From Thermococcus sp. AM4 (lineage in GTDB: Archaea > Methanobacteriota_B > Thermococci > Thermococcales > Thermococcaceae): a stretch of DNA of 64,000 bases. The DNA lies in NCBI RefSeq assembly GCF_000151205.2, contig NC_016051.1, positions 558,001 through 622,000 on the forward strand, written 5' to 3'. The position numbers were made by a program, and so were the translations under genes. Below, one piece after another: positions 15,944 to 24,606 of the stretch (position 1 is its first letter; every line of letters begins with the position of its first letter). Under the pieces are notes generated by a model. The model saw nothing but the letters and a program-made list of their open reading frames with translations, ran no database searches and had not been told where the DNA came from.

Positions 15944-16339
15944 CTATTTGCCGAACCTCTCCATGACCTCCTCAGGCGTTAGAACCTCGGGAAGCCAGCT
16001 GAAGTCCTTTTTATTGTACGTAACCAGCGGGGCGTTGAGCTTTAGAGCCAATGAGCCTATCATGTAGTCCCTCGCGTTCTTTGAGAAGTCCCAGCGACCG
16101 AGGGCAGATTCCACCGCAAGCTCTGCACATTCCCAATCAAAGTCCATAACCTCAATTGCCAGCGAGTTGAAAACGGCCATTAACTTGCTCCTAGCTTCGG
16201 CGAGACCCTTTCGTCTGGCATATTTGTAGAGCAGTTCCATATAAACCACCGAACTCGTTACCGGCTCAAGGCCTGAGTGCCTCAACCATTCGAGAAAGGT
16301 CCTGTTGTTGAAGACGTTGGTATCGAGTACAACGTTCAT
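15944..16339 (-). CDS. vapC: PIN domain ribonuclease, VapC-type toxin
   Basis: The protein is 131 residues with PIN acidic residues in VVLDTNVF, the MELLYKY region, a Glu/Asp near LGRWDFSKNARDYMIGSLAL, and a terminal TYNKKDF. VapC toxins cut specific RNAs, often initiator tRNA. Its start overlaps the stop of the AbrB-type antitoxin gene as ATGA, so the pair is co-translated. Confidence 0.85.
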   Translation of the reverse strand: MNVVLDTNVFNNRTFLEWLRHSGLEPVTSSVVYMELLYKYARRKGLAEARSKLMAVFNSLAIEVMDFDWECAELAVESALGRWDFSKNARDYMIGSLALKLNAPLVTYNKKDFSWLPEVLTPEEVMERFGK

Positions 16340-16584
16340 TCCTCTCCCTCCAGCTCGCGCAGAGAGCGTTCTATACCCCTCGCCAGTCCCTGTCTAACTT
16401 CTTCAACTGTCTCGTCTATGTCACTTGTTATCTCGCTAAGCTCCTTGAGGAGGTCGGTAAGCTTCATCAAAACGTAACGATTCCCCTCTCTAACGAAAAC
16501 CACCTCGTCTCCGGCCTTTATTCCAAGCGCCTCCCTAACCTCCTTGGGTATCGTGACCTGGTATTTCTTCGTGACGACTGGCAT
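16336..16584 (-). CDS. vapB: AbrB/SpoVT-type antitoxin
   Basis: About 82 residues starting MPVVTKKYQVTIPKEVREALGIKAGDEVVFVREG, the swapped-hairpin AbrB DNA-binding domain. An acidic helix (LLKELSEITSDIDETVEEVR) that would wrap the toxin follows. The ATG at 16584 with GGTGA upstream is preferred over the TTG 12 bases earlier. It probably represses its own promoter. Confidence 0.85.
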   Translation of the reverse strand: MPVVTKKYQVTIPKEVREALGIKAGDEVVFVREGNRYVLMKLTDLLKELSEITSDIDETVEEVRQGLARGIERSLRELEGEE

Positions 16585-16663
16585 TACCTTCACCAAAATA
16601 GTATTACCCTCAACCCTTAATAACCCCTGCGGTCGCTAATAAGCCCGAGAAAAGGTGATGAGG

Positions 16664-17263: not shown

Positions 17264-18100
17264 ATGATAAGCCTCGAAAAAACCGCAAATGAAATGATAC
17301 GCAACGGCACCTGGGCCTTCAGGGACGGCACTTTCTACCAGGCCCTGAGGCTGAGCAACGGGAAGACCGGAGTTGTTTCATACGACGGGGACTACCGCTT
17401 TCCCGAGGACTGGGGAAGGGGCGAGAGGAAGGAAGCGAGGGAAAAGCTAACTTTCGTTCTCGGCCTCGACACGGATTTGGATTCCTTCTACGCCGAGATA
17501 GGCGATTCGCCCTTTGCGTTCCTCATAGACGAGTTCTACGGTCTCGTTACCCCGGCGTCGCCGAGCACATACCAGGCCCTCATCGAGGTGATAGCCCAGC
17601 AGCAGGTTAACTACGAGTTCGCCCAGCGGACGATTAGAAACCTCGTCAAACTCGCCGGAGAACCCGTTGGCGAACTCTACGCCTTTCCGACCGCCGAGAG
17701 GATTGCAGGGCTGAGCGAGGAGGAGCTAAAGGGGGCAAGACTAGGTTATAGAGCGGGCTACATAAAGTCCCTCACCGAGTCCTACCTAAAGGGCGAGCTG
17801 AACCTCGAACTCCAAAATCTTGAAGTCGATGAAGCAATCAAATACCTCACGAAGTTTCGAGGAATAGGGAAGTGGAGCGCGGAGCTGTTCCTTGCCTATG
17901 GCCTTAGGAAGAACGTTTATCCGGCGGGAGACCTCGGGCTGAGGAGGGGGATAGCGAAGATTTTCGGCAAACGGCCGAAAGAAGTTAGAGAAAGGGACGT
18001 TAGGGAAATCATCGAGCCCTACGGAAGGTGGAAGGGGCTTCTGGCCTTTTACATTCTCTGCTACGACAGGAAGACCGAGATGGAGAGGAGGAAGAGATGA
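17264..18100 (+). CDS. DNA-3-methyladenine glycosylase (AlkA/OGG superfamily, HhH-GPD)
   Basis: The protein is 278 residues with an N-terminal antiparallel sheet and the HhH-GPD core. LIEVIAQQQVNYEFAQRTIRNL opens the helical domain. FRGIGKWSAELFLAYGL is the helix-hairpin-helix and YPAGDLGLRRG carries the catalytic Asp. It excises alkylated or oxidised bases. Its last four bases (ATGA) overlap the start of the coiled-coil gene. Confidence 0.88.
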   Translation: MISLEKTANEMIRNGTWAFRDGTFYQALRLSNGKTGVVSYDGDYRFPEDWGRGERKEAREKLTFVLGLDTDLDSFYAEIGDSPFAFLIDEFYGLVTPASPSTYQALIEVIAQQQVNYEFAQRTIRNLVKLAGEPVGELYAFPTAERIAGLSEEELKGARLGYRAGYIKSLTESYLKGELNLELQNLEVDEAIKYLTKFRGIGKWSAELFLAYGLRKNVYPAGDLGLRRGIAKIFGKRPKEVRERDVREIIEPYGRWKGLLAFYILCYDRKTEMERRKR

Positions 18101-18459
18101 GCGATGTTGTGATTATCCTGCCCCGCGAGAAGTTCAAGTCCCTGAAGGGAAGGGACGTTAAGGCCTTAATCGAGGAGAACCTGCCCAGGGTTGAGGAAAC
18201 CCTTAGGGCCGAGCGGGAGGAGTTCCTTCGGGAGAAAATTGGGAAGCTCGAGGAGAAACTTCAAGAAATGGAGAACCAACTCGGCGAGCTGAGGGAGTTC
18301 TACGAGAAAGCCCTGAGGGACAGGGAGCTAATGATGGCCGAGCGAGATAAGCTGAGAAAGGAGAACGAGGAGCTGAGGAAAAGGCTCGAAGAGAGGAGAA
18401 GTTCACAAGACGTGAACGACTCGTTCACGGAGCGTGAACAAAAAGTTCATAAATCATGA
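18097..18459 (+). CDS. Coiled-coil protein whose 3' end carries an operator array
   Basis: This is a 120-residue protein: a short strand (SDVVIILPREKFKSLKG), then an almost unbroken heptad coiled coil from about residue 40 to 105. I do not recognise a family. The last 19 codons (SSQDVNDSFTEREQKVHKS) are simply the translation of the GTTCAC/GTGAAC half-site array that continues into the gap. The tail sequence is therefore likely dictated by the regulatory DNA. ATG 18097 overlaps the glycosylase stop. Confidence 0.65.
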   Translation: MSDVVIILPREKFKSLKGRDVKALIEENLPRVEETLRAEREEFLREKIGKLEEKLQEMENQLGELREFYEKALRDRELMMAERDKLRKENEELRKRLEERRSSQDVNDSFTEREQKVHKS

Positions 18460-18461
18460 AC
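18401..18461. promoter_or_regulatory. Six-half-site operator array, 11-bp phased
   Basis: Half-sites GTTCAC (18401), GTGAAC (18412), GTTCAC (18423), GTGAAC (18434), GTTCAT (18445) and ATGAAC (18456) alternate in orientation. Their starts are exactly 11 bp apart (6-bp site plus 5-bp spacer). Every adjacent pair forms an inverted repeat, except that the GTGAAC/GTTCAT pair (18434 and 18445) has one mismatch. All half-sites face the same side of the helix. The array ends 13 bp before the ATG of the HTH-nucleotidyltransferase gene, whose N-terminal HTH is the natural candidate ligand. Confidence 0.85.
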
Positions 18462-18474
18462 GAGAGTTGGTAAC

Positions 18475-19090
18475 ATGTTCGAGCTCATTTCAACGCCGGA
18501 GCGGGTCAAGATTTTGACTATGCCCTTGAGAGAAAAGCGTCGGCGTCGAGGAAACCGCTCGGGCGACCGGGTTGAGCAAGGGGCTCGTTTCGAAAACGCT
18601 GAACCTCCTTACCAAGTACGGAATAGCGGAGAAGAAGGGTAGGAGGTTTGTAATTCTTCAAACACCAAAAACGCGCGAGTTAAAGAGGTTTTTGAACTTC
18701 GTCGTGCTCTCTGGGAAGCTTGAGCCTTTGAAAGAGGACTGGGTCTTGGCCCTTGGAGTATACGGAAGCTTTGCGAGGGGGGAGAACACCGACAAAAGCG
18801 ACCTTGACGTCTGGATTCTTGTGGAAAAGCCGAGCATACTGAAAACTGCCTCGTTGCAGAGGAAGATAGAAACCGCAACCGGAAGGGAAGTTGACCTGCT
18901 CGTTCTGACACCGAAGAGGGTCAAAGCGCTCCGTGAGAACGACCCAGTTTTTTATTACTCCCTCGCCTACGGCTCCATGATAATCTGGGGTGAAAGCCTT
19001 GAACGGATTCGAGACGTGCCTTCAAAGGAACCTGCTGAGAAGGATTACACCCTCACGAGAAAAGGCCCTGGTAAGCCTAAGACGAGCTGA
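18475..19090 (+). pseudogene. HTH-nucleotidyltransferase (MNT type), frameshifted
   Basis: From ATG 18475 the frame reads MFELISTPERVKILTMPLREK. After one extra C at 18538 the coding continues in the next frame as VGVEETARATGLSKGLVSKTLNLLTKYGI, together a winged HTH. The nucleotidyltransferase domain follows intact: GVYGSFARGENTDKSDLDVWIL has the GS-x-SDxD catalytic motif. Such MNT domains are antitoxins that AMPylate HEPN toxins. The frame ends at 19090 in a spurious tail after LTR near 19060, where a 2-base loss would restore continuity into the HEPN sequence. Without ribosomal frameshifting only the C-terminal ORF from 18572 could be made. Confidence 0.75.
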
Positions 19091-19467
19091 GGAGTGGCTC
19101 GAAGAGGCCAGACGACACCTCGGGTTCGGCTCTTACAGGACGTCGCTGGTTGAGTCGTACATGGCGATGTTTCACGGCGCGAGGGCTTTGCTCTTCAGGG
19201 ACGGGTGGAGGGAGAAGAGCCACTACTGCATAGCCCGCTACCTCGAGGAGTTCTACGTCAAAAGCGGAAAACTGGACGGGATATGGGTGGAACTGCTCGA
19301 CAGGATGAGGGAGCTGAGACACGAGGACCAGTACGACATCGTCTATGAGCCGATATGAGCCGAGGGCCGATGAGGCAGAGGAGGCTCTGAAACTCGCGGA
19401 GGAGTTCCTGAAGGTTATGAAGTTGCTGGTGGGTGGGGAAGATGAAGCTCACAATCAAACCCGATAG
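19059..19467 (+). pseudogene. HEPN domain toxin, frameshifted by a 10-bp duplication
   Basis: The segment from EKALVSLRRAEEWLEEARRHL is a HEPN domain (PF05168 type) with RDGWREKSHYC and the RX5H motif RMRELRH. The open frame stops at 19358. A perfect tandem duplication TATGAGCCGA (19344-19353 and 19354-19363) breaks it. Removing one copy continues the protein as YEPRADEAEEALKLAEEFLKVMKLL to a stop at 19467, overlapping the next gene. No good start codon lies near the domain, which suggests it was fused to, or read through from, the upstream MNT. Confidence 0.7.
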
Positions 19468-19831
19468 GGGCTTCGGGAAGGTTGAGGTCGCGCTCGATAA
19501 TACCGAGGTTGAAAAGCTCGCTGAGCGCTACGGCGTCTCTCCTGAGAGGATTATTAAAATCGCACTCACCGGAGAATTCAAGGAGTCGAAGGGAGAGCTT
19601 GATCAACTTGAGAAAAAGGCAGAAGAGCTTGAAAAGAAGGTCTGGAGGCTCGAAAAGGAGTACGCTCCGCTCCGTTACAAGGCCTACGGCCTGAGCGAGG
19701 ACAACAAAATCCTCGCAATCGAGCTCTCCGGCCTGATAGCGGAGAACAACCAGTTAAGGCGCTTCTTGAGGCTCCCCCCGAACAGGAACCTTGAGCTGAG
19801 AAAGCTTATATCCTACTACCTTCAAGGTTAA
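19442..19831 (+). CDS. Coiled-coil hypothetical protein
   Basis: About 129 residues. The N-terminal part looks like a small HTH or ribbon (VEVALDNTEVEKLAERYGVSPERIIKIAL), followed by a coiled coil (LDQLEKKAEELEKKVWRLEKEY) and a second helix (LSGLIAENNQLRRFLRL). Family not recognised. ATG 19442 follows GGTGGGGAAG. It overlaps the ancestral end of the HEPN pseudogene by 26 bases and was probably co-transcribed with it. Confidence 0.6.
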   Translation: MKLTIKPDRGFGKVEVALDNTEVEKLAERYGVSPERIIKIALTGEFKESKGELDQLEKKAEELEKKVWRLEKEYAPLRYKAYGLSEDNKILAIELSGLIAENNQLRRFLRLPPNRNLELRKLISYYLQG

Positions 19832-19835
19832 AACG

Positions 19836-19892
19836 CGGATGATGACAGCGAATTGCACCGAACGCTGTGATGACGAGGACTGGCCCTGACGC
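19836..19892 (+). ncRNA. C/D box sRNA candidate 2
   Basis: Eight bases after the preceding stop comes a textbook order of boxes. C ATGATGA (19839-19845) is followed by a 12-base guide (19846-19857), D' CCGA (19858-19861), a 5-base spacer and C' GTGATGA (19867-19873). A 12-base guide (19874-19885) and D CTGA (19886-19889) complete it. Three of four boxes are perfect and guide lengths are ideal. It should direct 2'-O-methylation of rRNA or tRNA at the base paired to the fifth guide nucleotide from D or D'. Confidence 0.65.
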
Positions 19893-24044: not shown

Positions 24045-24248
24045 ATGGAAGTTATAGATGCCGTTTACGAAAACGGGGTTTTCAGGCCAACCAAAAAGCC
24101 TAACATTCCAGATAAAAGGAGAGTGAAGCTAATTGTAATTGACGAGTTCCTGAGGGACTTGGAGGATGCATTTGGAATCTTTGAAGAGGACATTGACGTC
24201 AGAAAACTTCGCGAAGAGTGGGACAGGAATGTATCTGGTGGACACTGA
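24045..24248 (+). CDS. Antitoxin of the DUF104 / AF2212 type
   Basis: The protein is 67 residues starting MEVIDAVYENGVFRPTKKPN, the diagnostic DUF104 beta-hairpin, with an acidic C-terminal helix that should bind the toxin. The GGGGGAG ribosome site is 5 bases before the ATG. Its end overlaps the PIN toxin start by 20 bases. Confidence 0.85.
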   Translation: MEVIDAVYENGVFRPTKKPNIPDKRRVKLIVIDEFLRDLEDAFGIFEEDIDVRKLREEWDRNVSGGH

Positions 24249-24606
24249 TGTCCTGATAGACGTGCTGAGGGGAGTCAATGAGGCAAAGCAATACCTAACG
24301 GAACTGGCCGGGGAAGGACTTGCGGTCTCCGTAATAACCGTCGCCGAGCTTTTCTCCGGCAGGGACACAAAAGACCCCATTAAGAGAGAAAAAGTCCTTA
24401 AACTCCTGAGGCACTTTGAAGTAATCCCTGTTGATAACGAAATAGCCGTTCTCGCAGGGGAAGTTCGGAGAGACTACGGCCTTCATCTGGGAGACGCAAT
24501 TATCTCGGCAACTGCAATAATCCACGGCCTAACCGTTGTAACCGGCAACCTGAAACACTTCGGGAAGGTTGAAGAGCTTCCAGTAATCAAACCGCCGTAC
24601 AGGTGA
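24229..24606 (+). CDS. vapC: PIN domain toxin (VapC-like), partner of the DUF104 antitoxin
   Basis: The protein is 125 residues with YLVDTDVLIDVLRG, TVAELFSG, a central Asp in GLHLGDAIISATA, and TGNLKHF. These are the PIN acidic positions of a VapC ribonuclease. The ATG at 24229 lies inside the antitoxin end, the normal coupling for these pairs; longer in-frame starts fall in the antitoxin. Only 4 bases separate it from pxpB. Confidence 0.85.
   Translation: MYLVDTDVLIDVLRGVNEAKQYLTELAGEGLAVSVITVAELFSGRDTKDPIKREKVLKLLRHFEVIPVDNEIAVLAGEVRRDYGLHLGDAIISATAIIHGLTVVTGNLKHFGKVEELPVIKPPYR

Follow-up and report, generated by a model that had tools for sequence, protein, structure and literature searches.

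The window, a stretch of 64,000 nucleotides from the genome of Thermococcus sp. AM4, contains a regular array of half-sites located between a coiled-coil protein gene, denoted cc, and a gene pair of the HEPN-MNT toxin-antitoxin type. The array (18401-18461, 61 bp) consists of three palindromes, P1 to P3, with 6-bp arms and 5-bp inner spacers, spaced 22 bp from centre to centre on an exact 11-bp grid. It reads GTTCAC-aagac-GTGAAC-gactc-GTTCAC-ggagc-GTGAAC-aaaaa-GTTCAT-aaatc-ATGAAC. The genes and features of the locus are as follows.

17264-18100, + strand: HhH-GPD DNA glycosylase gene, the flank anchor for the tree
18097-18459, + strand: cc, coiled-coil protein gene, upstream; last codons encoded by the array
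18401-18417, no strand: palindrome P1, GTTCAC-aagac-GTGAAC, aligned across genomes
18423-18439, no strand: palindrome P2, GTTCAC-ggagc-GTGAAC
18440-18453, + strand: putative core promoter, with an A-rich BRE (18440-18444) and the TATA-like stretch TTCATAAA (18446-18453)
18445-18461, no strand: palindrome P3, GTTCAT-aaatc-ATGAAC, overlapping the BRE/TATA-like stretch
18475-19090, + strand: HTH-MNT antitoxin gene (winged HTH plus PF01909 nucleotidyltransferase), frameshifted
18990-19427, + strand: disrupted HEPN (PF05168) toxin gene, with an approximate end for the former frame
19442-19831, + strand: next, coiled-coil protein gene, downstream; directly behind P1 and P2 in module-less genomes

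The half-sites start at 18401, 18412, 18423, 18434, 18445 and 18456, the last one ending at 18461, 13 bp before the antitoxin ATG at 18475; in these positions, in the 11-bp phasing and in the distance to the ATG, the original prediction was exact. The half-site sequence given there, GTTCAC/GTGAAC, holds for the first two pairs, but the last pair is GTTCAT/ATGAAC. The perfect motif GTTCACN5GTGAAC is confined to the array within the 2.09-Mb genome. In a generic scan for any six alternating half-sites in 11-bp phase, the array scored 34 of 36, compared to a mean of 16.8 (sd 1.8) and a maximum of 26 in the rest of the window, and a chance origin was rejected on these scores. The two-palindrome pattern was detected in 54 of the 94 Thermococcales genomes that were compared, mostly at one place per genome; a reversed control pattern yielded 0 matches in this set.

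In the window genome, both genes of the module are disrupted, as judged by comparison with L001, which is 95% identical over the module stretch. The antitoxin gene has lost 1 bp at each of two places, near 18518 and near 18538; these deletions break the N-terminal HTH that the original prediction attributed to the downstream protein, and the frame of the gene is open only from 18572. The HEPN gene contains a 10-bp tandem duplication, TATGAGCCGA, at approximately 19344-19353, and the ORF stops at 19358. With these lesions, the window copy looks dead and, because antitoxin and toxin are both frameshifted, its operator is probably orphaned; both statements apply to one assembly, where sequencing error is possible. 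In L001, a 7-bp insertion near the start of the HEPN gene splits the frame, so that both modules of this clade look damaged.

Several other features of the window were noted. Behind next, at 19834-19891, there is a C/D-box sRNA-like sequence that matches Rfam sR17 with 26.9 bits, below the gathering score. Inspection of the translations by eye also pointed to a VapBC-type pair of PIN-like and AbrB-like genes on the minus strand (15944-16596) and a second small pair, antitoxin-like and PIN-like, at 24045-24606.

Conservation of the array with the HEPN-MNT module

Of the 94 Thermococcales genomes, 21 encode a close homologue of the HTH-MNT protein (E ~1e-60 or better), and the three-palindrome array precedes the gene in all 21. 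Eighteen of these are located at the same junction, in the order DNA glycosylase, cc, array, HTH-MNT, HEPN, next, with P1-P3 present in 18/18. In the remaining three, from genomes of another genus, the module resides at other loci behind the same three palindromes, and therefore the array goes with the module. Across the tree of module genomes, the half-site cores changed at 0.10 per site, compared to 2.9 for the spacers. No such array was found at L059-L061, which represent distantly related HTH-MNT proteins from other genera of the order; there, the score of the generic 11-bp scan remained at the level of shuffled sequence. A phylum-wide search identified no close homologues outside Thermococcales.

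The conserved array overlaps the predicted promoter of the module. The alignment of the module genomes hardly varies at P3, in the spacer ahead of it and in its inner spacer (columns s4, H5 and s5), whereas the spacer inside P1 and that between P1 and P2 are variable. Modules of either family (see below) have 13 bp between the last half-site and the ATG, except for two with 14 bp; for L057 and L058, the in-register ATG of the printed sequence was used, also at 13 bp. In T. onnurineus, promoters combine an A-rich BRE with a TATA box some 27 nt ahead of the start, and leaderless genes number 117 (PMC5316973). The centre of the TATA-like stretch lies about 26 bp before the antitoxin ATG, and a leaderless start is predicted for the module transcript because of this distance.

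The domain architecture of the antitoxin was assessed using intact relatives, in which a DNA-binding domain was identified, as a winged HTH in an AlphaFold2 (AF2) model and as Pfam HTH matches in family 2. The model of the HTH-MNT protein of G017 (pLDDT 88.6) begins with a winged HTH (residues 1-62), which is followed by a long helix (65-86) and then by the MNT domain (91-172). Its nearest solved folds are the MNT antitoxins of HEPN-MNT complexes, followed by winged HTH proteins of the IclR and MarR types; a TrmB match was weak and limited to family 2, where ArsR and IclR matches were stronger. Class II HEPN-MNT systems combine a PF05168 HEPN with a PF01909 MNT (PMC7641770), and the adjacent genes of the G017 module match both profiles (3.9e-24 and 1.1e-9, respectively), which places this module in Class II, whereas the window copy lacks the two intact genes that the assignment presupposes. 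The putative toxin matches PF05168 only, not PF01934 or PF08780 of Class I, and its motif, RMRELRHEDQY, differs from the RX4HXY of Class I HEPN proteins. The antitoxin scored 33.7 bits against the NCBIfam model MntA_antitoxin (NF047752), below the cut-off of 60.

A second family of the module, with an HTH-MNT protein about 50% identical to that of the first and a HEPN gene of its own, occupies a different locus (locus 2), between genes read from their translations as SAM-hydroxide-adenosyltransferase-like (sam) and NMN adenylyltransferase (NMNAT). Its array consists of two palindromes in the same 11-bp phase but with GTTCAR/YTGAAC half-sites, in place of the GTTCAY of family 1, that is, with the spacing conserved under a changed half-site sequence, which the original prediction had named as supporting evidence. 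The half-site type tracks the module family native to the locus, GTTCAY at cc/next and GTTCAR at sam/NMNAT. The recognition helix reads SKGLVSKT in family 1 and SKGxVS[STL]Y in family 2 and thus changes in step with the half-site, suggesting a residue-to-base correspondence. Perfect P1 and P2 are present at locus 2 in 5/8 module genomes vs 5/45 module-less ones (Fisher p=0.004, an indicative value, as species are not independent), and arrays remain at this locus ahead of NMNAT or next to VapBC.

The sam/NMNAT intergenic site is a toxin-antitoxin hot spot. In many genomes (L159-L161, L163, L167-L169, L200-L252), a VapBC-like pair fills the site of the family-2 module, on either side of the array, and the last codons of VapC extend into the repeats.

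Arrays in module-less genomes

Approximately 30 module-less genomes retain P1 and P2 at the cc/next junction, with next starting 3-4 bp behind them and the P2 spacer, GGAGY, providing an SD-like sequence for this gene. P3 is found at this locus only where the module is present. A few module-less genomes keep one palindrome, and the junction is free of palindromes in other genera. In genus g5, two-palindrome arrays that lack a module occur in three genomes at a third locus, behind an amidohydrolase-like gene (L117, L118 and L119).

The orphan half-sites are strongly conserved: changes per site in the module-less genomes amount to 0.30 for the cores, 4.5 for spacers 1-2 and 6.2 for third codon positions of next, a contrast that remains in clades without any module (0.057 for cores vs 0.229 for spacers) and that plain decay of a relic does not predict, judging from these rates. 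The exception is an entirely module-less clade (G026/G029/G038/G040), with 6 core and 0 spacer changes. Within the array-bearing clade, with outgroups left out, perfect P1 and P2 are present in 16/18 module and 20/38 module-less genomes (Fisher p=0.009, again indicative given the non-independence of species). Among array-bearing genomes, orphan decay correlates only weakly with how far away the closest module genome is on the tree (Spearman 0.23, p=0.22); a strong overall correlation came from the array-less outgroups and was not used.

Mapped on a tree built from the flanking genes, the junction switches between module and empty some 16 times, each time with identical end points, and the distances of HTH-MNT and flanks are correlated (Mantel r=0.73, with 0 of 2000 permutations higher). 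The sequences of one sister pair, G071 (module) and G036 (empty), match without a difference up to the end of P2, diverge at several positions within the first ~55 bp of next and match again just beyond. This marks a recombination tract that has one of its ends at the array. We regard the two alleles, module and empty, as old and as having been swapped through homologous recombination, which is shown for this single pair; P1 and P2 of module-less relatives are part of the empty-site allele, exchanged with the module allele in this pair at least. Recent loss together with recombination explains much of the persistence of the orphan arrays. That these arrays are maintained as docking or exchange sites for repeated gain and loss of the module, their half-sites being selected even where the module is missing, seems doubtful to us.

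The array as a candidate operator

The best explanation, and in our view a likely one given the sequence comparison and one predicted structure, is that the array is the operator and promoter region of the HEPN-MNT module and is autorepressed through the winged HTH of the antitoxin. A dimer of the antitoxin would bind each 6-5-6 palindrome; since the centres are 22 bp apart, three dimers would be placed on roughly one face of the DNA and would likely fill the array cooperatively, an arrangement that would suffice in place of the polymerisation along DNA envisaged in the original prediction. Because P3 overlaps the BRE and the TATA-like stretch, an antitoxin dimer on it would keep TBP/TFB from binding, so that both genes would be repressed. 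Autorepression, likewise part of the original prediction, is favoured by the association of the array with HTH-MNT genes at other loci, with phase, ATG spacing and promoter overlap kept, but not as the sole role of the array, given the ~30 genomes that retain P1 and P2, with cores far steadier than spacers, at a junction lacking a close HTH-MNT gene. Also against the operator are the frameshifted antitoxin of the window itself and the distant HTH-MNT homologues without an array (L059-L061).

The orphan arrays bring in another reading, namely, that they are recombination anchors, supplying homology for the swapping of module and empty alleles at toxin-antitoxin hot spots. The ~16 state changes with identical end points, the G071/G036 tract ending at the array and the Mantel correlation all point in this direction. 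Such anchors would account for persistence but leave the 11-bp phase, the overlap with the promoter and the change of half-site unexplained; furthermore, the flanking genes offer far more homology than 39 bp, and there is only one clear tract. We consider this explanation unlikely, but it can hold alongside the operator. Distinctly improbable, in our assessment, is a host DNA-binding protein that acts on the downstream host gene, the module having merely settled behind its array. Such a protein would fit the strongly conserved P1 and P2 kept directly before next in module-less genomes and the arrays still found at locus 2 ahead of NMNAT or next to VapBC, but one regulator would not explain why GTTCAY or GTTCAR follows the locus-native module family. 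Also against it are the presence of the array with modules at other loci, its decay in one module-less clade (6 core and 0 spacer changes) and its absence from other relatives. A single genome-wide host regulator was rejected, given that the half-site type differs by locus.

Two further explanations place the constraint in the transcript or in the protein. If the repeats formed stem-loops in a cc-next transcript, each palindrome could give a 6-bp stem with a 5-nt loop, with GGAGY exposed in the P2 loop about 10 nt before the start of next, as conserved in module-less genomes. However, the fixed half-sites with a 22-bp period that change with the HTH family suggest recognition of the DNA by a protein, the predicted start of the module is downstream of the array, and the half-sites are nearly invariant rather than changing in compensating pairs, so that RNA hairpins or translational coupling appear very improbable. 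The notion that the coding constraint of cc creates the repeats starts from the cc frame of the window, which runs through the array to 18459; accordingly, the claim that the array dictates the C-terminal codons of the upstream gene stands for the window's clade, but it fails in other clades, where the cc frame ends within P1, on the TGA of GTGAAC. In those clades, the half-sites fall into a different frame or past the cc stop, and they also precede modules that have no cc gene upstream. We rejected this explanation, to which we assign practically no chance, because it is contradicted by the frame differences between clades.

Among known systems, the predicted module resembles Class II HEPN-MNT (PMC7641770) in the domain pair, the gene order, the PF05168 HEPN and the MNT motif GSFARGE...SDxD, and differs in the N-terminal winged HTH of the antitoxin, the phased array of putative operator sites and the frameshifted window copy. 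As in HepT/MntA of Shewanella oneidensis (SO_3166/SO_3165), the MNT antitoxin gene is upstream of the HEPN gene and palindromes are located at the promoter (PMC4621449). The SO_3165 antitoxin binds and represses its own promoter (PMC4621449), as the Thermococcus antitoxin presumably does, but it has no recognisable DNA-binding domain in place of the dedicated winged HTH, and its promoter has two dissimilar palindromes, compared to two or three near-identical ones on an 11-bp grid. The TrmBL1/Tgr proteins of Thermococcales are also winged HTH-type regulators with 6-5-6 palindromes (TATCAC-N5-GTGATA) near BRE/TATA (PMC4158304); their sites, with another half-site, are spread over a sugar regulon, whereas the HTH-MNT array is tandem, phased and found at one locus per genome, as would befit local autoregulation.

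Makarova and colleagues thought it improbable that the HEPN-MNT pair contains a transcription regulator and proposed that a partner acting in trans binds the DNA (PMC2701414). For one archaeal group, the HTH-fused antitoxin and the matching phased operator would provide a concrete answer in cis. The GTTCAY and GTTCAR families form a natural two-specificity pair for working out recognition, and the orphan arrays would mark the empty sites of a mobile module, the gain and loss of which can be traced across the genus.
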